64,000 nt of DNA from Tetradesmus obliquus. Taxonomy: Eukaryota > Chlorophyta > Chlorophyceae > Sphaeropleales > Scenedesmaceae. The stretch's first letter is position 1; each line of letters opens with the position of its first letter. Where the stretch lies: assembly GCA_030272155.1 (NCBI GenBank), contig CP126201.1:4202501-4266500 (forward strand), in the 5' to 3' direction. The translations under genes and the position numbers were made by a program. The notes below the pieces were generated by a model, which did not search any database, was not told the DNA's origin, and saw only the letters and a program-made list of their open reading frames with translations. This document shows positions 64-56,656 of this stretch, in pieces.

Positions 64-2186
64 GTAATCCAGCGTGCCAACAACAACGCCTATGGTGAGG
101 AGGCGGCCACCGGCGCCGCAGCAGCTGTTGCTTTGAATGTCCGGAAGTAATGCAGGCAGTGCGCATGTGCGCAGTGTATGGTGGTACAAGCATGCTGTCA
201 ACACGCTGTGCGTACTGCAGTACTAGAATGAGCACTGCGCAAAGTGCTTGCATTCGTCGCACACTTGGCTACTTGACAGCTGACCCATGCAGCACCTGCC
301 CTACATGCGGTCTTGCCTATTTGCTGCTGCTGCTGATGCTGATGCTGCTGGTGCTGCTGCTGCCTGTGCCCCTTCCACCCTCAGGCCTGGCTGCTGGCGT
401 GTTCAGCAACAACATTGATGAGGTCAACACACTCTCCCGCGGCATCAAGAGCGGTGAGGCAGCAGCAGACAGACGCCTCATTAGAATTGCAGATAGTGCA
501 TCATAGTAGGTTGTAATGCATTACAACCTACTATGATGCATCCATATGGATGCGCAAGAATGTTTTTGGAGGTCGACACACTCTCCCGCGGCATCAAGAG
601 CTGTGAGCGCAGCAATATGTTACTGCAATGCATGTTAAGAACGTGATGCACAGGAACCACTACATCGAGGTCAGCACCCTTTCCCGTGGCTTCAAGAGCG
701 GTGAGAGCCAGCAGGCGTATGCAGCAGTGCTGAAGGCTGCTGCACAGCGTTGAGCAACATGATGCGAAGAACTTGGTGACAGTACACTGGGGTGACTGTG
801 CACCAGCATGCTGCCGTGACACAGCTACGGTCAGGATGTGGCAGACAGCTGTGGCGTCGTGCTGTATCAGGCCGCTCTTTACGCTGTCTCAGAGCCCACA
901 GGTGTCCACAGCACATGCACTCAGTGAGCATGTATGCGCAGGCTGTGGGCCAGAAGCTGCTGTGCGTAAAAAGCGCAGCACACTCTGCTACTTTCTGTGC
1001 AGCGCAGCACACTTTGCAATGCACACATCTTGATTCTCCCTGTCTGACTTTCTGCACTCGCCACCCCTGCTGCTGTACTTCAAATGTGTGCAGGCACGGT
1101 CTGGGTGAACTGCTACAACCTGTGAGTGGTGCAGCAGCAGCTCAGCGCTTGCTTGCATTCGCCACCAGACACAGCGTTCTTGCATTCGCACTTGCGTGCC
1201 GTACGTGCACGTGCATTCGTGCCGCCAGACACAGCCGCATGAAGCATGCAACAGCGGATGCAGCGTGTGCTGTACGTGGCAGCTGCTGCAGCAGTGCATG
1301 TGCCACCAGCCATCTATCTGCTGCGGCATGTGCCTGAGGAGCAGCCTCATTTTGCAACGCAAACAGTGCTGCATAGACGCTCCTGCATAGCTGGCGGCTG
1401 CTGCTGCCTGCCGCGTGCACCCAACGCATCAAACAACTTCAATGCACCTCACAACACCCCCACCCGCCATTTACTTGCTGCAGCTACGACAGCGCAGTGC
1501 CGTTTGGCGGCTACAAGGACAGCGGCCTGGGCAGGGAGAAGGTGCGCCTGCTGCTGCTGCTGCTGCTGCTGCTGGCACATAGTGTGTTGTAGCTATTGCT
1601 CTAGCAGTGCTTCAGGAGTGGGAGTGCTTGTGTACACCTGCAACACTGCTGCTGCTGCTGCTGCTGTGGTGGTGGTGGTGGTGGTGGTGCGGGCGATGTT
1701 CTCCCGGAGGCTGATCCTGATGCAAACAATGCTCAGCTGAGGCGCGCCGTACAGCGTATGGCTGCTGATGCTGTGATGCTGCCGCGGCAGCCTCTGCACT
1801 GCTATGCTTGAGCGCTCGTTGCTCTCTGCTGCTGCTGCAAGCGTCCTCACTCTCTGGCCATGGCTGCCTGTCTTTGCTTTGCGTTCCTGCAGGGGGAGTA
1901 TGCTCTGTCCAACTACACACAGGTGTGAGGAAGCTGTCAGCATGACATACTACGCTGCCCGCACAGCATGCAGTGCACAGTACAAGTGCATGGTGCTGTC
2001 TGGCAGCGGTGCAGTCGGGTCTTTCATGCGTGTTTGCTTGTGAGCAGGGACAGCCATGTTCCTTGTATTCCTACCTCTGTGTGTGTTCATGTCATAGCTG
2101 CTATGTAACAAGCTGATGTAACCCTGCTGACCTGGCTGCAGGTCAAGGCTGTGTACCAGCCCCTGGTCAACCCCGCCTGGAGGTGA
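64..2186 (+). CDS. ALDH: Aldehyde dehydrogenase (ALDH1/ALDH2-like), 3' part only
   Basis: NAD(P)-dependent oxidation of aldehydes to carboxylic acids. Only the C-terminal ~87 residues lie in the window. Exons with matching phases: 64-94, 385-453, 1094-1121, 1484-1541, 1893-1922, 2142-2186. They encode the conserved blocks VIQRANNNAYG, LAAGVFSNNIDEVNTLSRG, GTVWVNCYN, PFGGYKDSGLGREK, GEYALSNYTQ and VKAVYQPLVNPAWR-stop, which are the ALDH1/2 oligomerisation and C-terminal segments in family order. The catalytic Cys and Glu lie upstream of the window. ALDH2 (mitochondrial) and cytosolic ALDH1 types cannot be separated without the N-terminus. The intron after the second exon holds two decayed copies of that exon's 3' end and a perfect palindrome. 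A TGTAA motif at 2985-2989 is a possible polyadenylation signal, giving a 3' UTR of about 800 bases. Confidence 0.93.
497..540. repeat. Perfect 44-bp palindrome in ALDH intron
   Basis: The two 22-base arms, starting TGCATCATAGTAGG, are exact reverse complements with no loop. The site sits in the intron between the exons at 385-453 and 1094-1121. It could be a hairpin or cruciform site, or the remnant of a very small inverted-repeat element. No flanking target duplication is obvious. Confidence 0.9.
568..706 (+). repeat. Two decayed copies of the ALDH exon 3' end
   Basis: Copies begin at about 570 and 668, after the true block at 421. They still read EVDTLSRGIKS and EVSTLSRGFKSG against EVNTLSRGIKSG in the real exon. 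The first has lost the GGTGAG donor context; the second keeps it. They are intronic relics of an exon-edge duplication. Confidence 0.85.
1650..1690. repeat. (CTG)n/(GTG)n simple repeat in ALDH intron
   Basis: A run of CTG triplets passes directly into a run of about nine GTG triplets within the intron between 1542 and 1892. It is low-complexity sequence. The ORFs across it, rich in His or Val, are repeat artefacts. Confidence 0.85.
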
Positions 2187-2325
2187 ACTTCACTGTCGCG
2201 CCGGGAAGAAAGGGCATGAAGTTCACACCTTGAAGATGGGCCTGAACGTCACTCCCGCACCAGCAAGGCATGAACTTCACAGCGTGAAGATGGGCATGGA
2301 GTGCAAGCTGGGAGGTGAAGTTCAC
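2183..2325. repeat. Five spaced GTGAASTTCAC-like near-palindromes
   Basis: Eleven-base near-palindromes occur at 2183-2193, 2216-2226, 2242-2252, 2270-2280 and 2315-2325, interspersed with GAAGATGGG. The first overlaps the ALDH stop codon. They look like a degenerate tandem array of about 30-50 bp in the proximal 3' UTR. Confidence 0.7.
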
Positions 2326-3775: not shown

Positions 3776-5328
3776 GTGGCTGCATGCGCACACCTCACCA
3801 CGCCATGCCATTTGTACACCATGTCAGCCGTCTGCTGCAGCTGGCGCTGGGTCACCAGCAGCACTGCTCCTCGAAATGCAGCACCAGTCAGCACTGCAGC
3901 ACCATCTGCTCCGCAGCTAACAGCGCGGCCTCCTCCTGACACCCTCTTGAACTATCAGGCGGAGCTGTCGCCGCTGGCAGACCTGAGCAGCCTGGCTGGC
4001 AAGCCATTGCTGAGTGTGGTGGCGTGCAAGAAGGCCCCGCTAAAAGCAGTGCTCGACAGCTCAGCACCACAGTTTGACATCAAGGTCAAGACACTAACAG
4101 GCCAGTGGCTGCCCTTGAAAGTGCGTGGCAATATGTTGGTGGAGGAGTTCAAGGGAATGGTGGAGGATGCTGAAGGTGCGCAAATCTAGACGATTCATGA
4201 GCTGTTACATCGTGGTTCTTCAGTGTTAATTGGCCACTGAGGCTTGCATGCAGTGCTCCCCGCCTGGCCCCTGCCATGCATCAATACAAGTCCCCGCAGG
4301 CCGCACGCAAGACATTGCCTGCTTTTGGTTGTGTTTTGTTTGTTTCAGGACTTCCAATGTTCTGTTGTTGACTGCAGGCATCCCACCTGGCCAGCAGCGA
4401 CACATATTCAAAGGGATTCACCTACAGGACGGCCGCACCATGAGCGACTACGGCGTAGAAAGCGCAGCAGCAGAGCTGGCAGCGCAGGGGCAGGTGCCTG
4501 TGCTGCTCCTGATGCTGCCGCTGCGTGGCGGCATGTACCACCAGACCAGCGGGCGGCACGACAATGAGAGCATGAGTGCAGAGCCGCTCACACAGAGGTG
4601 GGTCCTACGCTGCTGCGCTGCTACTGCAGCTGATGATGATGCTCATGCTGGTGCTGCTGCTTTGGCAGCTACAGTCGCTAAGGTCGCTTGTAGAGTGCTG
4701 CCATTGTGCTGCTCCTGATGCTGCCGCTGCGTGGCGCCTTGTACCACCAGACCAGCGGGCGGCACGACAATGAGAGCATGAGTTCAGAGCCGCTCACACA
4801 GAGGTGGGTCCTACGCTGCTGCGCTGCTACTGCAGCTGATGATGATGCTCATGCTGGTGCTGCTGCTTTGGCAGCTACAGTCGCTAAGGTCGCTTGTAGA
4901 GTGCTGCCATTGTGCTGCTCCTGATGCTGCGCTGCATGGCGGCATGTACCACCAGACCAGCGGGCGGCACGACAATGAGAGCATGAGTTCAGAGCCGCCC
5001 ACACAGAGGTGGGTCCTACGCTGCTGCGCTGCTACTGCAGCTGATGATGATGCTCATGCTGGTGCTGCTGCTTTGGCAGCTACAGTCGTCAAGGTCGCTT
5101 GTAGAGTGCTGCCATTGGAGTTACTCACTTCAGCTTCCTCAGCATCTGTTCTGCTGCAGGTTTGGCAGGGTGCAATGTGTGATACTCATCGTTATTGCTG
5201 CGACGATCTGCTGACTGCACTGCAGGTGACAGTGGCAGTGCCAGGGTTTGGCGAGCTGCAGGTTACAGTGCCGGTTGACGTGTCAGGCCCAGAGTTGCTG
5301 CAGCTGGTGCAGCAGCGGGTGCAAACAG

Positions 5329-5367
<39 letters not shown>

Positions 5368-7034: not shown

Positions 7035-7512
7035 TCATAACAGCGTGAAAAGCGGCTGGGCTTTGCCAATCCCCTGTTTGATAGCGCTCAGCAGCTTTGG
7101 CTGCAGCTGGTCAGGCATGTCCTTCCAGTAGCTCCTAGCAGTGTTGGTGGCCAACTCCAGCACTTGCTGAGCAGCAGGAACCTGATACATGTGGAACTGC
7201 TCGCGCACGGAGGCTACCAACAAAGCTGCCAGCTCAGTAACAAGCTTTTCCTGCTGCTGCACGTCTGCAACATGACCGCTGAGGTGTGCCTTCAACTTCC
7301 GAGACTGCTCAGAAGCCTCGGCTTGCTGTTTCTGCAGCTTCTTGATTTCCTCATTGGCCATGCGCAGGGCGGTTAGGCTGGGCCAATGCTTGCTCAGCTG
7401 GCTACCCAGCTGGCTGGTCATGACATCAAAGTCCTTGCCTGCAGCCTCATAGGCCTCACAGAAGCTGCTGTAGCGCGCCCAGGCATCATCAAGCAGCCCA
7501 TACACCTGGCGG

Positions 7513-7546
<34 letters not shown>

Positions 7547-11179: not shown

Positions 11180-11215
<36 letters not shown>

Positions 11216-12063: not shown

Positions 12064-12108
<45 letters not shown>

Positions 12109-15100
12109 AAGCCCTGCACCATGCTGCTGCTGCCACAAGCTCTGCCACAAGGTGTGAAAGCCTTGCCGCTGCTGCTGGTGTGGCAGCAGCCCTGTGCTGC
12201 TGTCACTTCCAGAGGGGAAGTGAACCAAGCTACTGCCTGCTGAAAGTCCAGCAGCAGGCACCCCTGCTGCTGCTGCTGATGCTGTTGTGCTGCTTGTGTG
12301 GTTGCCAGGCAGCATCGGCTGCAGCTGGTCAGAGGCATCTGGCACAAATGCTGAAGCTACTGCAAAGATGAGCAGGTTGATGATCCACACAAACAGTGTA
12401 CGCACTGCCTGCAGCAGCGCTGTGTCCACTGCACTGAGCTCCCCTGCAGCAGCAACAGGACACACATGCACAATATAAAAAGTGCAAGGCACGACCTGCA
12501 ACTAAAGCATGCAATTGCGCACCGCTTCTGCATGACAAAAGCACACCACGCATACTTAATACCATACAATGACACGTGTTCAAAACCTGCGCACCTGTTG
12601 TGACCATGCCGCAGATGTTGTATGCTGCCAGCGAGCCTGTGTAAGCCAGCAGCAGCAGCTGCAGCAGCGGCCTGCTGCCCACCATGACCAGGCTGTCCCA
12701 GCTGTCCTCGGCCAGGCCCCAGCCCTCAGGCGCGGCGCTGACTTGCGCCAGCGGCAGCACCACACACAGCTGCAGCGCAAAAGCAGCAGCAACGCAATGG
12801 GGTGAGTCAGAACTGGGCTGTCCCAGCTGTCCTCAGCCAGGCCCCAGCCCTCAGGCCGCTGACCTGAGCCAGCGGCAGCACCACACACAGCTGCAGCAAA
12901 CAAGAAAGGACAGATGACAGCCAGAGCATGTTGAGCATCAGCCTCCAGTAGTGGCACCAGCGCTCAGGCGCTGCGCTGGTCTGAGCCAATGGCAGCAGCA
13001 CACACAGCTGCAGCGCAAGGGCAGCAGTACATAACAATATGGTCAGTTGGAACCAGGCTGTACCAGCTGTCCTCGGCCAGGCCCCAGCCCTCAGGAGCGG
13101 AGCTGACCTGGGCCAGCGGCAGCAGCACAAACAGCTGCAGTAAAGCAGAGAGGCAGCAAGTTGCATGTCAGACTTGGGATGTTACCAGCGGCACTGAGTT
13201 GAAGTGCCAGGCCCCAGCCCTCAGGTGCTGCATTGACGCGATCCAATGGCAGCACCACACACAGCTGCGGCGCAAGGGCAGCAGTGAACAACAAAGTCAG
13301 TTGAAACCAGGGTGTCCCAGCTGTCCTCAGCCAGGCCCCACCCTTGCGGCGCGGCGCTGACTTGCGCCAATGGCAGCACCACACACAGCTGCAGCACAAA
13401 CGCAGCAGCAAAGCAGCAGGGTGAGTCAGAACTGGGCTGTCCCAGCTGTCCTCTGCCAGGCCCCAGCCCTCAGGCGCTGCACTGACTTGGGCCAGCGGCA
13501 GCACCACACACAGCTGCAGCGCAAAAGCGGCAGCAACGCAACAGGGTTAGTCAGAACCAGGCTGTCCCAGCTGTCCTCGGCCAGCCACGACCCTTCAGGC
13601 GCTGCATTGACTTGGGCCAGCGGCAGCACCACACACAGCTGCAGCAGGCAACACAACAGAGGCAGCAGCAACATAGGTTCGGAACTACTGGAAAATGCAC
13701 TATCAGCTGCAGCGTCTGCCACGCCGAGCACCCTAAACACTGCCCATCTCAACGTGTGTGGACAGCCCATCCGTGCCCCACTGTCCCAGCCATGCCCCCA
13801 ACCTTCACTCACCGTCAGCACAAAGCCAAGCAGCCCCTCCGCGCCCACCACCTTGAGGGGTGACAGCTGCAGCCGGCTGTAGTATCAGCCCTGGTCGATC
13901 AACCAGCTGGCAGCACAACAGGCGACCTGGGAGCTCTGTCCTAGCAGCGACTTGGGGTTGCACCAACATCTGCAGTGTCTGCCCTTCCCTTCTCAACGCT
14001 GTTTGAATACCACATACATGCCCCACTGCATGACAAATACCCCAGTCCTTACTCACCGTCAAGACGAAACCAAGCAGCCCCTCAGCGCCCACCACCTTCA
14101 AGGGTGACAGCTGCAGCCGGCTGTAGTACCAGCCCTGGTCGATCAGCAGCTGCCCCGCAGCAAGCATTTGAGAGGCCAGTATGAGGCCGATGCCTGCTGC
14201 CATGGCTCCCCTGCTGCTGGGGGCGCTGCTGCCACCGAAACCAGAGGCCAGCGCAGCAGCAGCGACCATGCAGAGGCCAGTCTGTGGAGTGCAGCGCAGC
14301 AGAGCGGGGCGAAAAGTGGGTGGGTCAGTTGTCGGGGCTTCCTGCCAGCACAGTTGTGGCACCGCACAAACGCTATGATTGCAGATAAGATCAGCAGTTG
14401 CCCCGCAGCAAGCATCTGAGAGGCCAGTATGAGGCCTATCCCTGCTGCCATGGCGCCCCTGCTGCTGGGGGCGCTGCTGCCACCGAAAGCAGAGGCCAGC
14501 GCAGCAGCAGCAACCATGCACAGGCCCGTTTGTGGAATGCTGCGCAGCACAGCAGGGCAGGTAGTAGTTGAGTCAGTTATCGGGGTCTCCTGCAAGCAGA
14601 GCCGTGGCACTGCACAATCGGCTATGCTTGCAGAGAAGATCAGCAGCTGCATGCCTCGCAAAACCTGAGCCGCCCAGCTGGCCTGAACAGGTGCTGGATC
14701 AGCAGCTTGCACCGCACAAAGAGTGTGGACGCCTCAGCACAACATACCCTGGCGTACGCTGCTTAGCCTTCGTGTTTAAGGGACAAGTCAAAGCAATGCA
14801 TGCTGTAGCACCAAAGCTCACCATGCAGCCGGCGAGGCCTGTCAGGTGGTAGCGGTTCATGCGCTTGCCCCACAGGCACAAATTCAGAACACATATTGCA
14901 CACTAAATACTCACCATACACCCCGCGAGGCCAGTCAGGTGGTAGCGGTTCATGCGCTTTCCCCACAGGCACACGCCCATCAGTGCCGCAAAGGGCAGCA
15001 GCGACTGCCGCAGCATCTGAGTGGCGGATGCAGTCACTGCCAGCAGCCCCACATTCAGCAGTGCTGCGCCAGCCAGGTCAAACAGAGTGGGCACGGCCAG

Positions 15101-17362
15101 CAGCAGCAGCTGCTTATCCAGCAGGCGGAAGCGCAGCGTCGCTGCTGCTGTTGTGCTGCTGGATGCGAAGGGGGACTGCAGGACTCTGGGCGCTTGGTAC
15201 ACCTGTGGCAAGCCAGGCAAGGGGAAGAAAGCGGGAACATGAGCATCAGGGAGGGCAGGGGCTGATGCCGCTATGGGCTCAGCACGACAACCGATGTAAC
15301 TGTCCAGTGCGCTAATGCACCCACGCAAGTCCTCCACGGACTAATTCGGACACACTGAGCCGCAGTGACCTGTCACAGCAATTGCGGCTGCGCGCATGTT
15401 GCTGGCCACAGTCTGTCTTCTGCGCTGCTTGCTCATGCACTGCAGCTAGCTCAAGCACTGCAGCTAGCTCAAGCACTGCAGCTAGCTCAAGCACTGCAGC
15501 TAGCTCAAGCACTGCAGCTAGCTCAAGCACTGCAGCTAGCTCGTGCTCTAAGGCCAGCTCATGCTGTGCTGTGCTGTGCGGTGCTGTGCTGTGCTGTGTG
15601 GCCCCACCTCATCATCGTCTGCGTCAAACTTCAGCAACGGCGCGTAAAGCGGCTGGCAGGGATTCTATCGCAACCTTCACAACCAACAGACTGCATGTAC
15701 ATGCCCCACCTCATCATCGTCCGCGTCAAACTGCAGCAGCGGCGTGTAAAGCGGCTGGTACGGCTCGTACGTCAGCCGGCGCCGCGTGCTGCTGCTGCGC
15801 GCGATGAGGCGCGCCAGGTACTTGCTGCGGCGCCGCAGGCTGCGCGCGAGGTCCAGGAACAGCGACAGCGGCAGGTTGAGCGACATGCCTGCAGCATAAC
15901 AGGTTGTGGTTGCTGCAGGTTCTTGTGGTAAGGTGATAGTGCTTGCAGGCTATGAGCAGCAAGCAGTGTTCAGCAAGCCTGATGAGCTAGCTCCACCAGG
16001 CTTCGGCTGCAGCTCAAGCACAAAAATAACAGAGCACAACAGTAAGGCAATTAACAGTGGGACCGCAGGCTGCGCGAGAGGTCCAGGAACAGCGACAGCG
16101 GCAGGTTGACATGCCTGCAGGACAAAAGGTTGTAATCGCAGCATGTTGTTGTGGTGGGGCTACGGCAATTGCAGGCTACGGGCAGCAAGCAGTAATCTGC
16201 AAGCCTGATGAGCTAGCTCCACCCGGCTTCGGCTGCACTTCAAGCACAGGGGCAGGGGATAACAAGGCCAAACAGTAGGGCAATGAACAGTGGGACTGCA
16301 GGCTGCGCGCGAGGTCCAGGAACAGCGACAGCGGCAGGTCGAGCGGCATGCCTGCAGGGCAGCGGGTTGCAGTGGCAGTTGCAGGACAGCGGGTTGCAGT
16401 GGCAGTTGCAGCAGTTGCAGGACTTGAGCAGCGTGGAAGCTGGTAGGCTGCGGGGCTGCACGCTGCCTAAGCATGTATGCTGCCGACAGCAACATGGAGC
16501 CACGTAGAGGCTTAGCTACAGATGCAGCCTGACGTGTAAGTCATGGCAATCTGTGAGCCTTGGCGTGGTCCCGCAGTCCTGCAGCACTTGCCGCGACAGC
16601 TTCTGACCTCTGAGCTGCGCACTGCTACAAGCACGACACAGGCTGCTGGCAACTACGCAAGCAGCTTGACCACGTCTTCTACTGCTTGTGGCTCGCTGAT
16701 TACGTCAAATTGTATTGCAGCTGGCGATCTAGAGTTGAAAATTTTAAGGGCACATGTTACTTTTGCCGCGCAAAGCCCTCACCCGCAAACATGAGCAGCA
16801 CCAGGAACCAGGGCTTGCCAAAAGGGCGCGTGGTGCCATCTCTGCCCACAGCTTCCACCTCATACGCTGCAGACACCAGACAATGTACATCATCACATTT
16901 AACCAGGAGATGTGCCAGCATGGCTGAGACAGGTCGTGTGGGGGTTGACTCAGGCAGCACCAACACCTGGTCTGCCACTAGGGTTCCTGCTGAGCTCTGA
17001 AGCTAGCTGGCAGGTAGCTGACCAGCCTTGCCTGCTGCGCAGCACTTGCAGGACGGCTGCTGAGATACCACAGCTGCAATTTGGCGCGCACCAAGCTTGC
17101 CCAGTGTAGAGATGAGGGTGCCAAAGAAGATCAGGCCAGTCACTGCCAGCTGCTTCACCCTGGGGTGTATCTGCTTTGGCACGTAAGTTGGCTCGTCCAC
17201 AAGGCTGTGAACCTCATCTACAAGAGCGAAGCCATATGTCGCTGCTGTCTCAGCTACACGCTGGAAAGATGCTTGGAAAGGGCTGTTGAACGAGTTGCTG
17301 GCAGTGGCCATAGCAGGGCTACGTGCCTGAGGTGCTACATGATCGACGTTTGATGTTGACAA
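10844..17362 (-). CDS. SLC35F6: SLC35F6-like drug/metabolite (EamA) transporter
   Basis: Multi-pass transporter of the drug/metabolite superfamily, SLC35F6 branch; substrate not predictable. Eight exons agree in phase: 17092-17362, 16783-16866, 15710-15888, 14915-15202, 14057-14281, 12595-12769, 11910-12443, 10844-11670, giving about 860 residues. Diagnostic blocks in order: VKQLAVTGLIFFGTLISTLG; GRDGTTRPFGKPWFLVLLMF; LLLLAVPTLFDLAGAALLNV with ASATQMLRQSLLPFAALMG; LKVVGAEGLLGFVL; PLLQLLLLAYTGSLAAYNIC; GELSAVDTALLQAVRTLFVW; LGWSFLQAAGFLILVLG. These match SLC35F6 helices, including its TSFQMLRGS-like and RAVGTEGLFGF-like motifs. Unusual parts are a ~140-residue low-complexity insert with polySer before the last helix and a ~270-residue Ala/Gly-rich tail. 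Introns are packed with partial copies of exons 3, 4, 5 and 6. The start could instead be the Met at 17308. Confidence 0.93.
12690..13650 (-). repeat. 125-bp exon-6 edge array, about eight copies
   Basis: The real exon 6 5' part (CVVLPLAQV, then PEGWGLAEDSWDS) is followed upstream on the minus strand by degenerate repeats. The marker CTGTCCCAG falls at 12693, 12818, 13058 (variant), 13312 (variant), 13437 and 13562, with truncated copies near 12950 and 13200. The cleanest spacings are exactly 125 bp. Each copy includes a CTGCAG acceptor and the start of the exon followed by intron sequence. Only the copy at 12595-12769 continues into the next transmembrane segment. Confidence 0.92.
13808..14540 (-). 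repeat. About 245-bp duplications flanking transporter exon 5
   Basis: Exon 5 (14057-14281) is bracketed by a copy of its 3' half (about 13808-13905, GAEGLLGFVLTV) and one of its 5' half (about 14411-14540, MAAGIGLILASQML). Offsets are 245-248 bp. In the upstream copy the CCACAG acceptor has become CCACAA, so it should not be spliced in. Confidence 0.88.
14817..14975 (-). repeat. Tandem copy of transporter exon 4 end
   Basis: The block encoding the HEPLPPDRPR-frame copy of GKRMNRYHLTGLAG, with its donor, is repeated about 95 bp downstream (14817-14882 against 14911-14975). The copy lies in the intron after the real donor at 14915. Confidence 0.85.
15437..15545. repeat. 18-bp tandem repeat, six copies
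   Basis: The unit CACTGCAGCTAGCTCAAG is repeated head to tail in a transporter intron. Each unit contains the palindromes CTGCAG and AGCTAGCT. It is followed by a GTGCTGTGCT-type simple repeat to about 15600. Confidence 0.93.
15604..16360 (-). repeat. Partial copies of transporter exon 3
   Basis: Exon 3 is 15710-15888. Its 3' end (LLQFDADDDE) recurs at about 15604-15655. Its 5' end (LPLSLFLDLARS with its CTGCAG acceptor) recurs at about 16061-16121 and 16293-16357, spaced about 230 bp with matching intron sequence between (GATGAGCTAGCTCCACC is shared). Confidence 0.9.
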
Positions 17363-21200: not shown

Positions 21201-24004
21201 GCCGAAGGAGCAGCAGCAGCTGCTGCTGCAGCAGCTGATGGCTGTAGCTGGCGGCGGGCTGCAGCAGATGCCGTATGCTGAGGCTGTAGCAGCCTGGTGG
21301 GCTCTGGTGGAGTTCCAAGTGCTGGCAGAGACAGTACCCCTGCACATGCTGCAGCTGCAGCAGCAGCAGCAGCTGGCTGGGCCCGAGCAGCAGCAGCAGC
21401 AGCAGCACTGGCTGCAGCAGCTGCTGCTAGACCCAGCAGCAGCGCAGCATCTGCCCAAGCTGCAGCATCACAGCCTGCTGCAGCTGTCAGACGCCCTAGG
21501 CCGTCTGCAGCAGCCGACTCCAGCTGCATGGGCAGCTGCTTATGTTGCTGCTGTGTCACCGCAGCTACCCAGCCTGCAGCCGCACCAGCTGCTGTCTGTG
21601 CTGTGTGCTGTGCCATCTCTGGGAGGTGCAGCACAGCACCCGGAGCTAACCTCCGCACTGCTAGATTCCCTGCAGCCTCACTTGCAGCGGCTCTCTCCAA
21701 AGCAGCTCTCAGAAGCTCTAGCAGCAGTACAGCGCTGCGGTGCATTGCCACACCAAAGCTGGCTCGACGGTGCTGTAGCAGCAGCAGCAGCAAAGCTCGA
21801 CACATTCCTGGGCCGGCAGCTGATCAGCGTACTGGCCTCACTCGCCAGATTACGCTTCTGCCCGGATGCAGCTTTCCTAGCCGCCGCAACAGATGCAGCA
21901 GTAGATAGATGCGGCCCTGGCGTGCCGGCAAGCTGCCTTGTTGAGCTGCTGTGGGCGCTTGCGGCACTTAGGGTGCAGCCGGGTGCTGCATGGTTGGCCC
22001 GTTGGGAGGCGAGGATGCTTGAGAAGGGGCCGGAGCGGCTGGATGGGGCGCAGCTGGCAAGGCTGGGCTGGTGCCTGGCTGCACTGCAGGTGAGGCAGAG
22101 ATTGATTAATTGCTGTGCGAAATGTTGGGGAGAGTGCTTTTTATGCGCCCAGAATCTAGTTGGTGGCGTTGTGCTCGGCATGTGTTTTGTGTCTATGCTA
22201 GCTGGCGCAGCCTGGGGCTACATGGCTGGCTAGGTGGGAGGTGAGGATGCTTGAGAAGGGGCCTGAGAGGCTGGATGGGGCCTGAGAAGCTAGGCTGGGC
22301 TGGTGCCTGGCCGCACTGCAGGTGAGGATCACAAGGGGTAAGATTGATGTGACACATTGGGAAGGTGCTTTTCATGTACCCAGTTTTAGTGAAGTTTCGT
22401 TGTGCTGGGCATGTGCTTCGTGTCTAGGCAAGCTTGTGTGCAGCCTGGTGCTGCTTGGCTGGCTCGCTGGGAGGCGAGGATGCTAGAGAAGGTGGCAGGT
22501 GAGGGTGGCAATGCACAGGGTGGGTGCTGAATAACATCCTCGACTCGATGTTTGGCGGTGTGTGCAGCATGCGGGGTGCACCATTTGCTGCTTGAGAGCT
22601 TTCGCACTCGCCTGTGCAGGCGTTTGAACACCAGATAGCATGCTGACTAGCCTCCCCCTTGTGCTGCTGCTGCTGCTGCTGCTGCCTGCTCAGGCCAAGC
22701 CCGGGCAGCTGCTGATGGCACGCTACCTGGTGGCAGCAGGGGGGCAGCTGGAGCACATGGAGCCGCGCAGGTGAGGGCACAGAAGCAACAATACTGAGCA
22801 GACAGCCACACACAGAGACAGATGAGCACGCCACTGCAGCGACACTTGCAGTTTACAAAATACAGCTACGCACACCAATGTATAGTGCTTGAAGTGGTGT
22901 GCTTTGCACCAGCTGTCTCACACACACACCCTGCAACACACAGAGTGCCTTGCTTAAGCCTGCTTTCTTGCACTCACCCACTGTACAAATAACCCAACTG
23001 TATTTCCATCTCTGTTCGTTCTTTTTCTTTCCTTCCGCAGCCTCTCAGACACGCTGTGGGCGTGCGCCATGCTGGATGAGAAGCCCGCCAAGCCATGGCT
23101 GGACTGCTTCTTAGCAGAGAGCCGCAAGCACCTGCCAGCCTTCCCTGCGGGAGCACTAGTTACAGTGCTGTGGTCCCTGGCACTGCTACAGCACAGGCCT
23201 CCAAGCGATTGGATGGGCAGATGCCTCACAGCAGTAGGCAGCATGCTTGAGGCCAGCAGGGCAGCAGCAGCAGCAGCGGCAGCTGGGCGGCTTGACGGCA
23301 GCAGCAGCAGCAGGCTGCTGCAGCGGCCGCAGCTGCCGGGCACGCATGGTGCTTCCTGGGGGGGTGCTGCTGCTGCAGATGCGCCGAATATGCAGCAGCA
23401 GCAGCAGCAGCAGCTGAGTCCGCAGCAGGTGACTAGGCTTGCATGGGCACTAGCTACACTGGATTGCCAGCTGCCAGGTCAGCTGATGCAGCAGCTCGTG
23501 GAGCGAGCTGAGTCACTCGTGGGTCAACTCGACTCGGACAGCCTGGCTCAACTCGTGTGGGCACTGGATCGGCTAGATGACACCCCAGAGAAGATGTGGG
23601 TGCGGCAGTTTGCTGCTACAGCACGGTCTCACCTGCTATCGAGCCACTCAGGCGGTTTTGCAGCTGGAGGGTTTAGGCCGCAGGGTTTGACTGGCGCGGC
23701 AGGGTTCTCCCTGCCAGGGTTTGGGGTTCAGCAGGGGGCGCCAGCAGGGTTTAAGCACGCCGCAAGCCAGTTGGTGCTGTTGAAGCCTTCGCGTCCTGCT
23801 ACAGGCCAGCACAGTGCAGCAGCAGCAGCAGCAGGCATGCCAGCTGGCATGAGCCGGGGAGCAGCAGCAGCAGCAGCTGCAGGCATCACAGTGCAGCAGG
23901 AGATTGTGCAGGAGCTGCAGCGGGCAGGGTTTGGGGCTGTGCGGGGTGCCAGACAGCAGGAGGTGCTGGCAAAGCTGCGGCAGCTGCGGCAGGCCTCTGA
24001 GTAG
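18211..24004 (+). CDS. Octotricopeptide-repeat (OPR) protein, probably organelle-targeted
   Basis: Exons 18211-22089, 22694-22770 and 23041-24004 agree in phase and give about 1640 residues. Helical repeats of roughly 38 residues carry the OPR signature of a PP-x-W core plus an LWA block: PPERWTLGFMDRAQLLF, SNMLWAAAKLGLVLPEPWLE, LSNLLWAAAKLSG, LSDTLWACAMLDEKPAKPWL, LVTVLWSLALLQHRPPSDW. OPR proteins bind single organelle mRNAs in green algae and control their stability, processing or translation (Tbc2/Tda1 type). The N-terminus is Ser/Ala-rich and Arg-containing with almost no acidic residues, compatible with a chloroplast or mitochondrial transit peptide. Long polyGln and polySer tracts interrupt the repeats, and there is no obvious RAP domain. 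The first intron carries tandem copies of the exon 1 end. A TGTAA at 24247-24251 would give a 3' UTR of about 245 bases. The organelle RNA target is unknown. Confidence 0.92.
22011..22500 (+). repeat. 232-bp duplications of the OPR exon 1 3' edge
   Basis: GAGGATGCT anchors lie at 22011, 22243 and 22476. The real copy encodes WEARMLEKGPERLDG through LGWCLAALQ and the donor at 22090. The second repeats exon and intron with a small internal deletion and an in-frame stop. The third is truncated after about 60 bp. Confidence 0.92.
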
Positions 24005-26514: not shown

Positions 26515-29326
26515 CACTCTGCAGGTGCTGGCACCTGAGTTTGACAAGCCATATGCTGCGCAGCTGCAAAGCTTCCTGCAGCAGGAGTGGGCGGCAGGCA
26601 CGGTGTATCCACCCAAGGAGTGCATATTTGCGGCATTCAACTCAGTGCCGTTTGACCAGGTTTGATCAATAGTTTGACCAATGGTTTGACTGATGGTTTG
26701 ACCAGCAGCTGCTTATACTGCCTATGCCGACACTAGTTGCCTGCAAATGATGCGTGTGCTGTTTGTGCCTGTGTGTGCTTGTGGTCCGTGCAGAGCACAT
26801 TTTTGAGGGTTGATGGTTGAGCTACAGCGGCTCCTGACAAGCTCTGTATGTGTGTGCAACTGCTCGTGTGCTGTTTTACCGGCTGCAGGTGCGCGTGGTC
26901 ATCCTGGGTCAGGACCCCTACATAAACCAAGGTGAGCTGCAGACAGCTGCGGCGTTGCCTTTGATGAACAGGCCCCAGCCCACAGTATTTCTTGGGTGCT
27001 GTGTATGCACGAAATCCTCACTTGCCCCTGTTGCGGATGCCGCCTTTGGTTTCAACGATACCCTGCATTTACCACCGCGCACAGGCGAGGCCATGTGTAT
27101 GCAATCCTCACTTGCCCCTGTTGCATTTACCACCGCGCACAGGCGAGGCCATGTGTATGCAATCCTCACTTGCCCCTGTTGCATTTACCACCGCGCACAG
27201 GCGAGGCCATGTGTATGCAATCCTTACTTGCCCCTGTTGCATTTTACACCGCGCACAGGCGAGGCCATGTGTATGCAATCCTCACTTGCCCCTGTTGCAT
27301 TTACCACCGCGCACAGGCGAGGCCATGGGCCTGTCCTTCAGCGTGCCGCGTGGCGTGCGTGTGCCGCCCAGCCTGGCCAACATGTACAAGGAGCTGGCAG
27401 CAGACCTGGGCTGCACCACACCAAACCACGGCTGCTTGGAAAAGGTGTGTTGATGCTGTGTGCAGCAGCTTTGTGGTTGTGGCAGTGGCTGGCATGGCGC
27501 GTATCTTCCTGCCTGTACGGCACGAGCTGGCGGCTGAACTGCGGCGGTGTGCCGGAAACCACTGCTGCTTGGACACCGTGTGCTGTGCATTATGTGTCAT
27601 GCGATGATGCATGCAGTTGCTTCCTGGTTACTGATGTACAAGGAGGTGGCGGCAGACCTCGGCTGCGCCACGCCAATCCACGGCTGCTTGGAAAAGGTGC
27701 GGCACAGGATTGGTGTTAAAGAAATGCATGGTGCTGGTGATTTCACCTGGCTTGTTACCTGGCATGAATACCGCCCAGCCTGGCCAACATGTACAAGGAG
27801 CTGGCAGCGGACCTGGGGTGCACCACACCAAACCACGGCTGCTTGGAAAAGGTGCGGCACAGGATTGGTGTCAAAGAATTGCATGGTGCTGGTGATTTCA
27901 TCTGGCTTGTTACCTGTGGTAGTGTGCCGCCCAGCCTGGCCAACATGTACAACAAACGTTTGGATCCGCTGGCGTGTGACCCACAGTTGCTTGCATTGAT
28001 CCTTGCAGTGGACGCGTCAGGGCGTGCTGCTGCTCAACGCCTGCCTCACAGCTGCCCTGACTGCCCTGACTGCCTGTGTTTGGTGGCGTTATTGCTTTTT
28101 GCTCGAGCTGAGCTGGTGATGATTGCTATGTACTGCTGCACACCTGCAGTGGACGCGCCAGGGCGTGCTGCTGCTCAACGCGTGCCTCAGCGTGCGCGCC
28201 AAGGCCTCCAACAGCCACGCGGGCAAGGGCTGGGAGGGCGTCACCAGCGCAGCGCTGGCAGCGCTGGCGCAGCGGCGCAGCGGCATCGTGTTCCTGCTGT
28301 GGGGCAAGTGAGTATGCAGTTTGTTGAGTATGTGGTTTGTTTGTTTGGTTGCTTGTTGATGCTGATGAGGCCCTTCATTGTGCGCGTGCTTCCAGTCTGA
28401 CCCCTCAGCTGTCGCAGGGTGGTGTGCTGCTGCTGTGGCTGTGCTGATTAATGAATGCTGTTGATGCTGATGAGGCCATGCGAAATCCTATGCTGTGGTG
28501 TAGCAGCAGGTGCTGCAGACGCGGCTGTGTGGATGGCGCGCCGGTGTGTTATAGGTGCTGCCTACTGATGCAGTTACTGCCTTGTCATATCTTGTGGCAT
28601 GGTGCGGCAGTGTGGCGTTTTGCTGGCGTTGTGCCAGTGTAGGCACGTGTTGTGTTTCGTCAGGTGTGTGCTGCCTCCTGGTGCTGTGCTGCAGGTTTGC
28701 GCAGGACCGCTGCGCCCAGCTGGTCATTGGAGGCATGTAAGCACGCTAGCGAGGTATCTTACTAGGATTAAGCTTGATAATGGTTTGTTTGATGTGGTGC
28801 CCGTGCCGTTGCTGACCTGCAGGTTTGCGCAGGACCGCTGCGCCAAGTTGGACATGCGGCGGCACCACGTGCTGAAGAGCGTGCACCCCTCGCCTCTGTC
28901 AGCACACAGGGTGAGAGCAGCTGGCTAGAGCAATGCAAGACACTTCCGTTTGTGTGATATGCAGCTCATGATGATTTTGTATGGTGCAGCATGCAACAGT
29001 GAAGTGCCTGCATGCATCCGCCAGCAGCTTCATGTGGCATGAGCAGCTGCACGCGGCTCACAGGCTGCGTTTGCAAAGCAGCGATGGCTGCGGACACTTG
29101 ACAGCCGCAGTCAAGTTCCGCATTCACCCAAAACGTCCTAAGAGAAAAGGCCAGCCATGCTTGCTGCACGATCTCTTTTGTTTGACTGTGCTTATCTGCG
29201 TGTGCCTGTGCTGCTGCTGCTGCTGCTGGTCAGGGCTTCCTGGGCTGCAGGCACTTCTCAGCCACCAACAAGCTGCTGCAGGAGTCTGGGCTGCCAGCCA
29301 TCGACTGGCAGATAGACAGCGTGTGA
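24926..29326 (+). CDS. UNG: Uracil-DNA glycosylase, family 1
   Basis: Removes uracil from DNA to start base-excision repair. Nine exons agree in phase: 24926-25141, 25295-25632, 26020-26116, 26525-26659, 26889-26931, 27317-27444, 28150-28307, 28823-28910, 29234-29326 (431 residues). The catalytic domain is complete: [21 protein letters not shown] (catalytic Asp), [66 protein letters not shown] (catalytic His and minor-groove loop), [15 protein letters not shown] and IDW near the end. The loop after GQDPY reads INQGEAMG where most family members have HGPxQAHG. Two starts are plausible. Met 24926 gives an Arg/Ser-rich, mitochondrial-like leader; Met 25043 gives [15 protein letters not shown], resembling the PCNA-binding N-terminus of nuclear UNG2. 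Exon 2 is polyGln/polyAla. Partial copies of exons 4, 6, 7 and 8 sit in its introns. Confidence 0.97.
26240..26295. repeat. 18-bp tandem repeat, three copies
   Basis: The unit GCAGCTGCAGCTTGACA repeats three times in a UNG intron between exons 3 and 4. Confidence 0.8.
26344..26392 (+). repeat. Decayed copy of UNG exon 4 start
   Basis: It reads VLNPEFHKP after a GCAG acceptor, against VLAPEFDKP at 26525, with an offset of about 177 bp. After the match the frame runs into a stop, so it is probably not an alternative exon. Confidence 0.8.
26468..26514. repeat. (CTG)15-type triplet run before UNG exon 4
   Basis: An uninterrupted CTG run of about 15 units lies just upstream of the acceptor at 26523-26524, in the position of the polypyrimidine tract. 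Confidence 0.9.
27077..27316 (+). repeat. 58-bp repeat carrying the UNG exon 6 acceptor, five copies
   Basis: GCGCACAG occurs at 27077, 27135, 27193, 27251 and 27309, exactly 58 bp apart. Every copy has the 3' splice site followed by GCGAGGCCATG, the first codons of exon 6. Only the last copy continues into the coding exon. Confidence 0.95.
27525..27960 (+). repeat. Copies of UNG exon 6 3' half
   Basis: The block [10 protein letters not shown], then NHGCLEK and the donor, ends the real exon at 27444. It recurs at about 27640-27694 and 27772-27851 (154 bp apart), degenerately near 27520-27580 and truncated at 27928-27955. They lie in the intron before exon 7. Confidence 0.9.
28004..28062 (+). 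repeat. Partial copy of UNG exon 7 start
   Basis: TGCAG followed by [14 protein letters not shown], 141 bp upstream of the true exon 7 at 28150. The copy diverges after about 45 bases. Confidence 0.85.
28689..28740 (+). repeat. Partial copy of UNG exon 8 start
   Basis: CTGCAG followed by FAQDRCAQL, 128 bp upstream of the true exon 8 at 28823 (FAQDRCAKL). Inclusion would reach a stop within about 15 codons. Confidence 0.85.
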
Positions 29327-42883: not shown

Positions 42884-42939
42884 GGTTTGCTGCTGTCTGT
42901 GAGGCAGGTGAGGAAAGTCTGCAGGCGACATGCTGCCTG

Positions 42940-42970
<31 letters not shown>

Positions 42971-45900
42971 TTTGGAGTAAAGCGCAGCTTGAAAGCCTGC
43001 ATGCGGCTGCCAGCTGCTGACGGGGTGGGGCTGCTGCTGCTGCTGCCAGCACCTCCAGCGCCTCCAGTAGCAGCAGCAGCAGCAGCAACTGGCGCCGGTG
43101 TGGCGCTCGGCGCTGCTGCTGCCACCCCTGCTGCTGCTGCTGCTGCTGCTGCTGCGAGCTGCACCACACCAAGCCTGCTCACCACTGCTGGAACCGCTGC
43201 AGGCTTCACCCCTGCAACACTGCCATCATCACCAGCATTTCCTTGCACAGCCGGCGCTGCTGCTGCTGCTGCTGCTGCACTGCGGGCCTCCCATGCTGCC
43301 TTGTACTGCTGCAGCACAGGGCCCAGCTGCTGCAGCAGCTGCCGCAGCATTAGGCCTGCTGCTAAACCACCCAGGTCCTTGTGCCTGAACCCTGGCTCTG
43401 CTATGTCATTGATCTGACCTACACCGCGGCTGGCAAGCAGGCTCTGCAGTGTGGCTGACAGGCCTGGCAGGTCCCCTTGTGCAGACAGCACCTGCGCACA
43501 TGGCACAGCACAGAACAAAAGAGTTGTGAGTGTTAGAGCGCAGGGTTGGCTTGGCTGCAGCACCCCAGCAGGCTCTGCAGTGTGGCTGATTAGGCCGGCA
43601 GATCACCCTGCGCAGACAGCACCTGCGCACATGGCACAGCCCAGAACAAAAGAGTTGTCAGCGTTACAGCGTAGGGTTGGCTTGGCTGCAGCACCCCAGC
43701 AGGCTCTGCAGTGTGGCTGATTAGGCCGGCAGATCACCCTTCGCAGACAGCACCTGCGCACATGGCACAGCACAGAACAAAAGAGTTGTCACTGTTGAAG
43801 CATAGGGTTGGCTTGGCTGCACCACCCCAGCAGGCTCCGCAGTGCAGCTGACAGGCCCGCCAGGTCACCCTGCGCAGACAGCACCTGCACACAACGCACA
43901 GAACAGAGAGGAGTCATCCCATGCGGCCGCCACTAAGAAATGTGCCTACTGGAAAACACATCATCCAGCCACACCGTAAGCACAGGTACGCTTGCAGCAG
44001 CTTCCATGGATCACAGCAGCATGCCAGCGCAAGGGCCTCACCCTCAGGTGCAGCAGCAGCACCCGCCGCAGCCGTGTGTTGGTGGCACGGCTGCTCTCCT
44101 CCTCACCCCACCCCCTGAAGTACACCGGACGGCTGCCCCAGCACGTCTCTGCAGCACTGCTGTCAACACCAGCGGCTGCAGCAGTTCCTGCTGCCGTCTG
44201 TGCTGATGCTGCCAGCTCCTCTGCAATGCCAACACCAGCAGCAGGCACTGTTGCTGCCAGCTCTTTACGCAGTGCTGCGTCATCGCTGCCAGCAGCTGGC
44301 ATCAGTGTGCTGCAGCCCTGCTGCTGCTGCTGCCGCCGCTGCAGCCGCCGCCGCTGCCGCCGCAGCTGCTGTTGGCTGGGTGTGTGGCTCGCCTTGACCC
44401 GTCCGCTGCGCATGAGCATGACCAGGGAGAAGGGGCAGCCGTCGCCCAGCTTCAGCAGCTTGGACAGAGCCGCCAGCGCGGCATCAAACCTGCAGCAGCC
44501 GCAAAGCAGCAAACAGCAGCCGTTCAAGATAGCTTTAAAGAATTATTCAAGATAGCTGTTGCTGCCCAGCATCAGGAGCTTGGACAGCCCGGCACGCGCA
44601 GCATCGAATTTGCAGCAGCATACAGCAGCAGATAGCAGGCGTTCGGGAACTGTCACCGCCACTCTTGCAGAAAACGTCAGCACCTTGGACATCACCGCGA
44701 GCGCAGCCGCAACTCCGCAGCAGAAGCCTGCAGGAGCAACAACCCACCTGCCCAGCATGTACAGGCCTTTGACCAGGCTGTAGCGTGCAGGAGCCAGCGG
44801 ATCCATGTAGCAGCCCTGGCACTCTGCTACCATGTGCAGCAGGCTACACAGATGCCACGTAACACACAAGAAACACCCGCCAGGCTTGGCACTCCACAAC
44901 TGGTCGCCTCGTTCCGACCAACCTGTCCAGCATCAATGGCATGACTGGCATGATGCATGATTAGCACAATCTGTTCCTCCACGCCACGTTATGAACCCAC
45001 CTGCCCAGCATGTACAGCCCTTTAGCCAGGCTGTAGCGTGCAGGGGCCAGCGGGTCCATGTAGCAGCCCTGGCACTCGCACAGTGCCCCGCTGGCATCCT
45101 GCACCAGCAGCTCAACAGCCAGCCTCCACAGCTGCACTGCAGGCTGCGCCACACCCTGCTGCTGCTGTTGCTGCAGTTGATCTGACAGCTGCTGCTTGCT
45201 CAGAGGCTCCTTGAGGAGTGCCTGTAGCTGCACCAGCAGCAGCTGCTGCTGAGTTGCTGCTGGCTCCACCTGCTGCTGCTGCTGCTGCGCAAGCTGCTGC
45301 AGCAACGGCTGCACTTGCTCTCCGACCGCTGGATCAAAGCACCACTTGCCTACCATCTGCAGCACTGCCAGCAGCTCATCCAGTGGCGAGGAGCCTCCCT
45401 GCATTGCATTTGCTGCAGCCGCTGCACTCCCTGCATTGCTGCAGCTCAATCTATGCCCTGATCTTGCCACTGCTGCTGCCAGCAGCTTCAGCCGCATGCC
45501 ATGCAGCTTCACAAAAGGCTGCAGGAATGCTGTGCCACAGTGCTGCTGGCTGCGGCTAAGCCAGCAGGCTGCTGCATAGTGCTGCAGGCAGGTGGCTTGC
45601 CAGCCTGGCTGCTGCAACTTGCAGGACAGCTGGCCTAGAAACAGGTGGGACTGCCAGCTGGAGCTGGTGTTTGCTTGCTGCACTTGCAGGAAGCACGACT
45701 GCACAGCAAAAGAAGAAGGCGAAGCACAGAGGAGACAGGCAGCAGCAGGAGCAGGGTGCACAAGGTACTCAGTGGCCACCGTGGCACCAGTGGAAGCTGA
45801 GGCATTGAACCAAGGTCACATTAAAGCAGGCTGCTGCAGCTTGCAGGGCAGCTGGCCCAGCTGCAAGTGGGACTGCCAGCTGGTGCTGGTGTTTGCTTGC

Positions 45901-48292
45901 TGCGCTTGCAGGAAGCAGGACTGAAGAAAACAACGGCAACGAGGGACAGGGGGTAGAATATGTTTAGCAGCCACCATGGGGAGGCAAGCTATCATTACAG
46001 GCTGGGACAAGTGGGTGTGTAGCCTGGCACACAACACGCTTTACATCAACCACAGTAAGAACGGGTGATGTAGGCGTCAATGCTGTGCATGCTGAATCAC
46101 AGTCACGCAGCAGCAAGCCTATCCTCGCCCTATCGGAAACATGCATGCGATGCACCCTCATCCTATGTCTACTGATACTGTGGCCCATCACCTGTGCTGC
46201 GCTCAGCAGCTGCAGCCGGCCAGCATCTCTCAACGGCTTGAACCTCCACGGCTCATGCCAGGGAGCAAGGCACAAAGCGGCATCCCGCAGCAGCAGCCCC
46301 AGGCTGCTGAGGCAGCTGTTCATGCCCCGCACATCACCCTCATCCCGCCGCTGCTGCTGCATCAGACGCGCAGCTACAACTGTGGCACGAAGCGCGCGGC
46401 GGCTGAAGCGCTGCAGCAGCAGCAGCTGCTGCTGGCGGGTGCTGCTGCCAGGAGCAGGGCTGCCTCTGGCCGCCGCCGCTGCTGCTGCTGCTGCTGGCGA
46501 GACTGGTGCTGCGTTGTCTGCAGAAGCATTGGTAGCGGCGAGTGCTGCTGCAGCTGCTCGCCACTCAGACACGGGTGCTGCACCTGCTGCCTCTTCCAGC
46601 AGACGCTCCTGCGGCACAGATAACAGCGCATGACACCAAAATGGTGTGAGCAGTGTGATATCGCAACACACACGCACACACCATCTGTTTGCCTCCTTCA
46701 GCAGCCAATCCTGCAGCAGAGTCGGCAGCGCAGGGCCTGGCAGTGTTGAGTAGAGGTGATGATCTTGAGGGTAATGACCCACAGAACATTGCCTGTGCAG
46801 AGCTGTATAACATCCAGGCCTGGTACCATGCAGCAAGTCGCAAGCGCGTCCAGCAGCCGAGATGGATGCGACTTGATGTCATAAGTGCATTCCTGGTGCC
46901 ACCAGGCAGTGCCACACAGTGACAAACGCATGGACGGATGGGATGGGATGGGATGCAATCTCTTCGAGCACCACTCACATCGCCGCAGCAGGCACCACCA
47001 GCACTGCACACCCTCAGCAGGCAGGCAGCATGCACACACCTCAGCCACTCGCTCCGACCCCAGCTTTCTCACCGTCGCAAACAGGTACAGCTCAGCCAGG
47101 CGTTGCCACGTGGCAGCACGTCCTCAAAAACAGCAGGCAGCACGCATGTCAGCACCCATGCCAGCACAAGTGCAACACAGCCCAACACAAACCTTTCCCC
47201 GCCCCACTCACCGTGACACACTACACGCCTTCACACAGTATGCCTGCCACACAAAACAGCTTCTGCCAACAGCGCTTCCAATGTCTTCCTATGTTTTCCG
47301 ACCCCGCTCACCATCACAAACAGGTACAGCTCAGCCAGCCGTTGCCACGTGGCAGCAGCAGCAGGCCGCACAGCTAGATCCAGCAGCAGCAGCAGCTCCT
47401 GCTGCAGCACCTCACCCAGCCCAGGCCCACCCTCGTCACTTGTTAATGACACTGTTACGCGGCCGCCGCTGCTGCTGCTGCTGCCAGCCGCCACGTCAGC
47501 GTCTGCTGAGTCATCATCCTCGTCATCATCATCGTCAGATGACGCCCCATCATCAGCGCAGCCGGCAGCAGGCAGCAGTCGAGGCAGCTGGAATGCTGCT
47601 GCATGGTACAGCAGCGCGTGAAGCTCCTGCAACGGGTCCGCTGCTGCTGCTGCTGCAGCTGGCACTTGTATCTGGGTGCTGCTGGACCCAGCTAGCTGTG
47701 ATCGCTGCTGCTGCTGCTGCTGCAGGGGAAGGCTACTTGGCAGGTTCAGCACCAGCTGCAGATCTGCCGTGCTCCAGCCATGCACACCATTTGCAGCAGC
47801 AGCAGCGCCAGCAGCAGGGGCAGCAGCAGCAGCAGCAGGGCCATCTGGCCCTAGGCTGCCTGCATTGCCTGCCTCCACAGGATGCATCTCCACATCAGCA
47901 GCATCAGCAGAGCCACTACCCATAAGCAAAGACCTTGCTCCCTGCTGCTGCTGCTGCTGATGCTGCAGTTGAGGAATGCCATCTATGCCGAGCAACCCCA
48001 CAGCATCAACCGATGCAGAGACAGCAGCTCCATCCAGCACTGCTGCTACCCTGGCAGCAGCAGCAGCAACCAGAGCCACGGGAGGGCCCGGCAGGCGCTG
48101 CTGCAGCTGCTTCAGCAGTGGCAGCTGCTGCTGCCAGAACTGCTGCTCTGCCTCAAAGGCAGTGCTGGGCTGCTGCAACCGCAGCTGCTGCTGCTTGTTT
48201 GTTGCTTCTTCGTCGTCTGTGTCGCTGTCGCTGCCGCTGCCGCTGCCACTGCCACTGCTGGCGCTGCTGCCATGCCCTGCAGCTGCTGCCAC

Positions 48293-48339
<47 letters not shown>

Positions 48340-49653: not shown

Positions 49654-49684
<31 letters not shown>

Positions 49685-50071: not shown

Positions 50072-50114
<43 letters not shown>

Positions 50115-51995: not shown

Positions 51996-52030
<35 letters not shown>

Positions 52031-53279: not shown

Positions 53280-53311
<32 letters not shown>

Positions 53312-53936: not shown

Positions 53937-53969
<33 letters not shown>

Positions 53970-56656: not shown

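Follow-up and report, generated by a model that had tools for sequence, protein, structure and literature searches.

Copies of exon ends, each carrying its splice signal and lying dead in the neighbouring intron, are far commoner in this alga than chance or ordinary tandem repeats would make them. An earlier note on the window (the whole 64-kb stretch of DNA analysed here) had described repeats at exon borders in six named genes, and we found them in all six. The exon-edge repeats are real and not special to the window: 16 of 23 other loci from the same genome hold at least one repeat cluster, which bears out the suggestion of a process reaching beyond the six genes (the seven loci lacking one are L009, L013, L014, L019, L020, L023 and L027). 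The description of the copies as ending inside the exon, shifted in frame and left in the intron also stands, while the proposed causes, taken up below, fared less well.

The sample comprised 294 kb in 24 sequences, namely the window and 23 loci, out of a genome of 104.66 Mb in 17 contigs. The loci were drawn as 20 spaced 10-kb pieces and five more, from which L011 (all N) and L033 were excluded. L033 (positions 1-10000, G000:C16:1100001-1110000) consists entirely of a satellite array with a 1689-bp tandem unit at an identity of at least 99.9%. Also kept out of the counts were L001-L002, which overlap the window, and L003-L008, which had been chosen by CTG-repeat matches; L031 was additionally excluded from the k-mer tests. 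Repeats were located by a tandem-repeat scan and by self-comparison of the window. Exon borders are ab initio predictions from a gene finder trained on these data, whose unsupervised training drifted onto CAG/CTG repeats and, with repeat masking, still did so in later rounds; the final version used fixed acceptor, start and length models. Its gene ends are unreliable and it calls many of the intronic copies (hereafter decoys) as exons, and its predicted exons agree with homology where tested (ALDH, ubiquitin-like, UNG). Annotation beyond these three genes is unproven, since six of eight other proteins searched against Pfam gave nothing, or only sub-threshold hits of relevance.

Three of the gene names given in the earlier note are supported: spliced exons of the ALDH gene match PF00171 (6e-25), exons of the ubiquitin-like gene match PF00240 (1.7e-13), and UNG matches 45 distinct PDB sequences. 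The repeats in these genes are as follows.

385..453, plus strand: ALDH source exon (predicted), the end of which is the source of the copies
420..464, plus strand: ALDH exon edge, source segment, with 34 bp of exon and 11 bp of intron shared
569..614, plus strand: first ALDH decoy, a copy of 420-464 at 93% identity
667..705, plus strand: second ALDH decoy, a copy of 420-458 at 87%
4499..5117, plus strand: ubiquitin-like gene, a 206-bp unit in three copies (97.6%), tandem across the donor at 4597 and including intron; abutting class
27064..27327, plus strand: UNG intron array, 58 bp in 4.6 copies, the last entering the exon at 27317-27444 by 11 bp
27364..27447, plus strand: UNG exon edge, source segment, with 81 bp of exon and 3 bp of intron shared with 27771-27854
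27634..27699, plus strand: UNG decoy B, 91% identical to the source, with intron in common with decoy C
27771..27854, plus strand: UNG decoy C, 97.6% identical to the source over 84 bp
28004..28189, plus strand: UNG acceptor edge, 28145-28189 copied upstream to 28004-28048 (96%; 40 bp of exon, 5 bp of intron)
28667..28855, plus strand: UNG acceptor edge, 28793-28855 copied upstream to 28667-28727 (83%; 33 bp of exon, 30 bp of intron)

The UNG repeats at 27359-27952 on the plus strand show both patterns side by side: source and decoy C are 97.6% identical but have only 3 bp of intron in common, whereas the two decoys, 89% identical to each other, have about 100 bp of intron in common. The UNG decoys match nothing in two aligned PDB UNG sequences (in the best match, residues 100-118 serve twice), and the residues that flank them are contiguous in both. 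In the ALDH intron, a perfect 44-bp palindrome lies at 497-540, between the source and the first decoy; a search of the genome for a second place of this palindrome found none.

The remaining names are less secure. Hits for the transporter and OPR genes fell below curated cut-offs (EamA, E 0.017, and FAST_1, E 8.6e-4, with one further exon of each giving no hit), and CABIN1 was not confirmed. Two exons of the large minus-strand gene that the earlier note called CABIN1, a prediction that is possibly merged, gave no hit when searched against Pfam. The repeats in these genes are listed here.

12687..13668, minus strand: transporter-like gene, array of about 125 bp in 7.7 copies on the acceptor side of predicted exon 12595-12769
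13740..14650, minus strand: transporter-like gene, duplications around predicted exon 14057-14228
14817..14973, minus strand: transporter-like gene, donor edge, 14910-14973 copied to 14817-14880 (92%; 52 bp of exon, 12 bp of intron)
15601..15758, minus strand: transporter-like gene, donor edge, 15703-15758 copied to 15601-15656 (93%; 49 bp of exon, 7 bp of intron)
15833..16378, minus strand: transporter-like gene, acceptor edge of predicted exon 15710-15888, with upstream copies as an array and as a separated pair, 15835-15894/16298-16357 (97%)
21972..22508, plus strand: OPR-like gene, 232-bp duplication (77%)
43436..43907, minus strand: large minus-strand gene, array of 131 bp in 3.6 copies; abutting class
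44444..44644, minus strand: large minus-strand gene, acceptor edge, 44444-44525 copied to 44564-44644 (78%; 46 bp of exon, 36 bp of intron)
44741..45077, minus strand: large minus-strand gene, donor edge, 44994-45077 copied to 44741-44824 (94%; 77 bp of exon, 7 bp of intron)
47068..47357, minus strand: large minus-strand gene, donor edge, 47307-47357 copied to 47068-47118 (94%; 46 bp of exon, 5 bp of intron)

Two further repeats in the window lie away from predicted exons: a separated 95-bp direct repeat (45607-45923, 89%), which may mark an unpredicted exon edge, and a 35-bp unit in 7.4 copies at 99% (58145-58402).

Close direct repeats form 81 clusters in the 294 kb and fall into two classes. 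In 23 clusters the copies abut, as the word "tandem" used for them earlier implies, but the other 58 are separated pairs. The abutting arrays overlap predicted exon edges in 16 cases against 15.6 expected when positions are randomly shifted, so that the expected enrichment of tandem arrays at exon borders did not materialize; it is the second, commoner class that is enriched, with 43 of the separated clusters overlapping an exon edge against 18.8 expected. The remaining separated clusters comprise six that are exonic without an edge (11.7 expected), one mixed (2.7) and eight outside exons (24.8). Source and copy are mostly offset by 60-600 bp, and the separated copies lie 16-209 bp apart, with one at 432 bp (gap lengths, like per-position identities and abutting-array periods, were taken from the first 20 sequences, 254 kb). 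Matches inside loci at offsets of 60-400 bp number 128 direct and one inverted, and matches between loci number six. A minisatellite array class was considered and set aside for the 58 clusters whose copies do not lie head to tail, and on the ground that donor-side intron is shared less than neutral decay allows (the acceptor side is mixed); the other 23 clusters qualify for it. The only inverted repeats inside loci are four imperfect self-palindromes of 55-121 bp (L016 5576-5675, L022 2785-2870, L026 5655-5709 and L030 175-294), the palindrome at window positions 497-540 and one 35-bp pair in L021. A 110-bp repeat is common to two contigs at 96% (L012 2073-2181 and L023 7093-7202).

The anatomy of the copies was read from clusters with an edge-spanning separated pair, taking the first such pair of each; there are 58 of these (35 donor-type, 23 acceptor-type), a different set from the 58 separated clusters counted above. 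The copy sits in the intron next to the edge it came from: 33 of 35 donor clusters have the copy downstream of the source, and 19 of 23 acceptor clusters have it upstream. In donor-type clusters the copy includes 23-99 bp of the exon edge, with an exon median of 47 bp and an intron median of 8 bp; the corresponding medians for acceptor copies are 46 and 11 bp, and both kinds are truncated within the exon. The earlier view that adjoining intron was copied along with the exon edge therefore applies to abutting arrays such as 4499-5117 and not to the 25 of 35 donor-type and 12 of 23 acceptor-type clusters in which the intron part is at most 12 bp, although triplet masking shortens the measured intron part in some clusters (L016 cluster 6, L029 cluster 7). 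The border is less sharp on the acceptor side than on the donor side. Across 25 donor pairs from the first 20 sequences, identity is 0.76-1.0 at positions +1 to +5, 0.64 at +6, about 0.44 at +7 to +21 and about 0.29 beyond.

The same border appears in a test that is independent of where alignments end, in which 14-mers at 975 predicted edges were followed for recurrence within 400 bp. Those from donor exon ends recur downstream in 12% of cases and those from the intron, from +6 on, in 2.9-4.6%; the control rates are 0.4-0.8% when the region of another gene is scanned and 0-0.3% for the opposite strand. Acceptor edges behave alike, at about 11% on the exon side against 3.4-4.3%. Counted per donor (n=445), a nearby copy exists for the exon side only at 62, for the intron side only at 6 and for both at 17 (p 8e-13), and exact 20-mers give 23, 3 and 4 respectively (n=422). 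Pseudo-donors are without the exon-side bias of real donors, the same three counts being 7, 4 and 8 for those in introns (n=281) and 3, 9 and 2 for those in exons (n=186). Exon-end 14-mers also recur on the wrong side, at 8% upstream of the exon for donors and 6-8% downstream for acceptors, which decoys called as exons could explain.

The copies are close to dead. All 21 indels found in them shift the frame, and the splice dinucleotides, though largely kept (GT in 41 of 45, AG in 43 of 48), are intact about as often as neutral change at the observed divergence would leave them; they provide the decoy splice sites that the earlier note had foreseen in introns. Within families of at least two copies, the changes confined to one copy comprise 52 synonymous, 84 nonsynonymous and two stops, where 28, 69 and 3% would be neutral, and changes unique to the source are 17 synonymous and seven nonsynonymous. 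Decoy pairs with alignable intron have diverged equally in both parts, by 7.7% in exon and 7.5% in intron on the donor side (12 pairs) and by 15.4% and 13.1% on the acceptor side (14 pairs). Mismatches are unclustered, with 2 of 70 cases beyond the 95th percentile. From the neutral-like changes, the equal divergence and the unclustered mismatches we conclude that the copies are near death and show no sign of gene conversion. Copy-unique changes nevertheless lean synonymous (38% versus 28%), and differences between source and copy (265 synonymous, 190 nonsynonymous and seven stops overall) fall in third positions 258 times against 101 expected from composition, an excess not fully explained by a neutral copy and a constrained source, so that some decoys may be constrained.

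This lean, together with the mostly intact dinucleotides and the many decoys that the gene finder calls as exons, is what might be expected if the copies worked as alternative or mutually exclusive exons or as splice regulators. We consider such a role very improbable, given the uniform frameshifts, the near-neutral copy-unique changes and the contiguity, in the two aligned PDB sequences, of the residues flanking the UNG decoys. Tandem or mutually exclusive exon duplication was rejected as a class on the same loss of reading frame and on the truncation of the copies within the exon. An assembly artefact from merged haplotypes, to which the clustering of copies in some genes could be ascribed, is likewise extremely unlikely: identities vary within one locus (79-100% in L016), the copies carry frameshifts and the sequences used hold no N.

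Locality, direction, topology, near-neutrality and the border at the donor splice site are direct observations. From them we tentatively favour, as a reading about as apt to be wrong as right, local same-strand copying that re-inserts exon edges into the adjoining intron, most likely through break repair or a short backward template switch. During repair of a break, or during replication, a short backward switch of template would copy the exon edge on the same strand, and about 35-110 bp of it with its splice site would be re-inserted into the adjoining intron at a distance of some 75-325 bp. Left untranslated, the copy would drift, dead, as a decoy; tandem amplification of decoys along with intron may follow. 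Most donor-type tracts end no more than about 12 bp from the splice site, the intron therefore not being duplicated, with a mixed picture on the acceptor side. We infer the part played by repair or template switching; that the tract stops at the splice site owing to breaks or polymerase stalling at exon borders is our guess.

Ordinary tandem duplication by slippage or unequal exchange could yield a similar picture if it spanned borders and the intron half then diverged, with similarity in the exon half kept longer because selection froze the source exon. The periods of the abutting arrays do overlap the offsets of the separated pairs, clear abutting examples exist (4499-5117), and partial intron similarity remains, more of it on the acceptor side. 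However, in simulations of tandem duplication and decay, run for four ages with two indel rates, separated pairs retaining no more than 12 bp of intron numbered only 1 of 38 to 7 of 37, against the 25 of 35 observed (the simulations scored the best pair per case and the observed counts used the first). Exon-side hits were accompanied by intron-side hits at a rate of 0.46-0.94 in the simulations and of 0.22 (14-mers) or 0.16 (24-mers) in the data. Simulated duplications thus share intron far more often than the real copies do, which tells against plain tandem duplication and against the slippage proposed in the earlier note. Where the exon parts of a donor pair differ by no more than 5%, intron similarity is at chance level in 12 of 15 cases, while all four decoy-decoy donor pairs at 0-2% have intron in common, and the UNG family, where the closer pair shares the less intron, points the same way. 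As a general account, tandem duplication is in our judgement unlikely, though it deserves serious weight.

For a part of the material it is probably correct. Intron similarity reaches p<=0.05 in 30 of 51 acceptor and 13 of 48 donor source-copy pairs (pairs of the same family not being independent), and five acceptor pairs at 0-2% exon divergence have intron scores of 15-52 where chance gives about 9. Past the end of the common tract the intron side keeps a weak residual similarity, greater than in permuted pairs (p 0.03 for donors, 0.0014 for acceptors); the inner exon side shows no such excess (p 0.73 and 0.999). Because of the acceptor intron sharing and this residual similarity, some cases, a larger share of them on the acceptor side, are probably ordinary duplications that took intron along. 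Decoy-decoy donor pairs at 2-5% divergence have clearly common intron in only 2 of 6 cases.

Old tandem duplications might also have had their exon parts kept alike by gene conversion, or by repeated unequal exchange, between source and decoy. This would set the border where homology is held and would explain the weak residual intron similarity, but the mismatches of the copies are unclustered and decoy exon and intron have diverged equally (in a test that keeps only pairs with alignable intron), and we rate it as distinctly improbable. Somewhat less improbable, yet still doubtful, is that the transcription or splicing machinery sets the template or the break, by a paused polymerase, an R-loop or a pre-mRNA repair template, so that an exon end with only the few intronic bases of the splice signal is what gets copied into the next intron.

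If the edge were a long flanking repeat left by a staggered break at the exon border, with fill-in from either end and filler DNA at the join as in Daphnia, direct repeats with unshared sequence between them would follow; the splice site is indeed nearly always part of the repeat, as it would have to be for the gene to survive. The intervening stretches do not look like templated filler: all six searched were without a second place in the genome, in a search that skips very common words. Staggered breaks also predict neither the short intron part nor the scarcity of intron-only pairs (8 versus 24.8 expected), which makes them, to our minds, a very doubtful origin. No mobile element was seen, the six stretches having no second place, and an introner was rejected on this ground and because the copies are gene-specific exon ends; filler templated elsewhere in the genome was rejected on the single-place result. 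On this result the intervening stretches resemble ordinary intron, not filler or a mobile element.

Returning to what might favour local copying at particular sites, the CAG/CTG-rich borders suspected earlier are not supported as a trigger. Triplet runs occur near 8 of 56 copies and near 141 of 1059 random intron spots, and they are carried by 8 of 62 edges with a copy and 186 of 914 other edges, although loci rich in triplet runs do carry more copies (rho 0.57, p 0.0055, 22 loci). Genes differ in how densely they carry copies (chi2/df 1.81, p 0.002, 36 genes), and this density bears no relation to GC3, a proxy for expression (rho -0.02, 36 genes). The loci without an edge-spanning cluster include L015, L013 and L023, which, from their translated exons, we take to encode HSP90, an eRF3/EF1-like protein and glycogen phosphorylase. 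The densest case is L029 700-5400, a single gene model where the families of most copied edges number 3-6 members. No close paralogue of L029 or L028 was seen among the matches listed, only short, largely triplet-like hits; those of L028 on other contigs (3575-3648, 5455-5584, 6901-6950) are perhaps dispersed elements or triplet runs. The intron enlargement suggested in the earlier note gains no support, as introns hosting a copy have a median length of 206.5 against 262.5 (p 0.11), a comparison weakened because decoys called as exons split introns.

The phenomenon works like repair-mediated proximal duplication, and differs from the published descriptions, as excerpted here, in its choice of source and in where the tract ends. 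A human set from 2009 holds 824 proximal duplications, averaging 162 bp and lying within 5 kb, which were attributed to break repair and can include exons and splice sites; in the text we drew on, two duplicated exons lack coding constraint and one exon was copied in the opposite orientation (PMC2671141). The algal copies resemble these in being short and local, near their source on the same chromosome, but are direct and mostly within about 325 bp, and they strongly over-represent exon edges, where only 4 of the 824 human donors are of partial exon/intron type (PMC2671141). The introns ascribed to staggered breaks in Daphnia likewise have internal direct repeats and repeat the terminal bases of the adjacent exon, although over 4-12 bp in new introns according to the excerpt, as opposed to tens of bp with a splice site in introns of many sampled genes (PMC4202315). 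Duplications at breaks with 3' overhangs are also short, local and direct products of break repair, and are described as tandem, unlike algal copies separated by unshared intron (PMC8355091). Intron gain by tandem genomic duplication duplicates splice-site sequence within genes too, but, in the portion of the review used, an exonic AGGT segment gives rise to a new intron, whereas in the alga an existing edge enters an existing intron (PMC3443670). Rogers and Bendich (2025) report direct repeats at intron/exon borders, of 4-30 bp (mean 11.4) at the two borders of one intron, an arrangement and scale, as given in the extract, that differ from ours (PMC11782384). In a literature search made largely on titles and the beginnings of abstracts, we recognised no published description of exon-edge-limited copies in introns. 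Patch-mediated duplication in rice, paired-nick work in Arabidopsis and the first Daphnia intron paper belong to the background of the subject.

If the sample is typical, its 43 separated exon-edge clusters in 294 kb would extrapolate, roughly, to about 15,000 in the 104.66-Mb genome. Such copies would keep supplying decoy splice sites and would be a trap for gene predictors, and they would offer raw material for alternative splicing and intron turnover. They would also record where DNA is re-copied relative to splice sites. The prediction from a border there is that some mutational process takes notice of exon ends. Should the machinery of transcription and splicing itself set what is copied, splicing would leave a direct mutational signature in the DNA of this alga.
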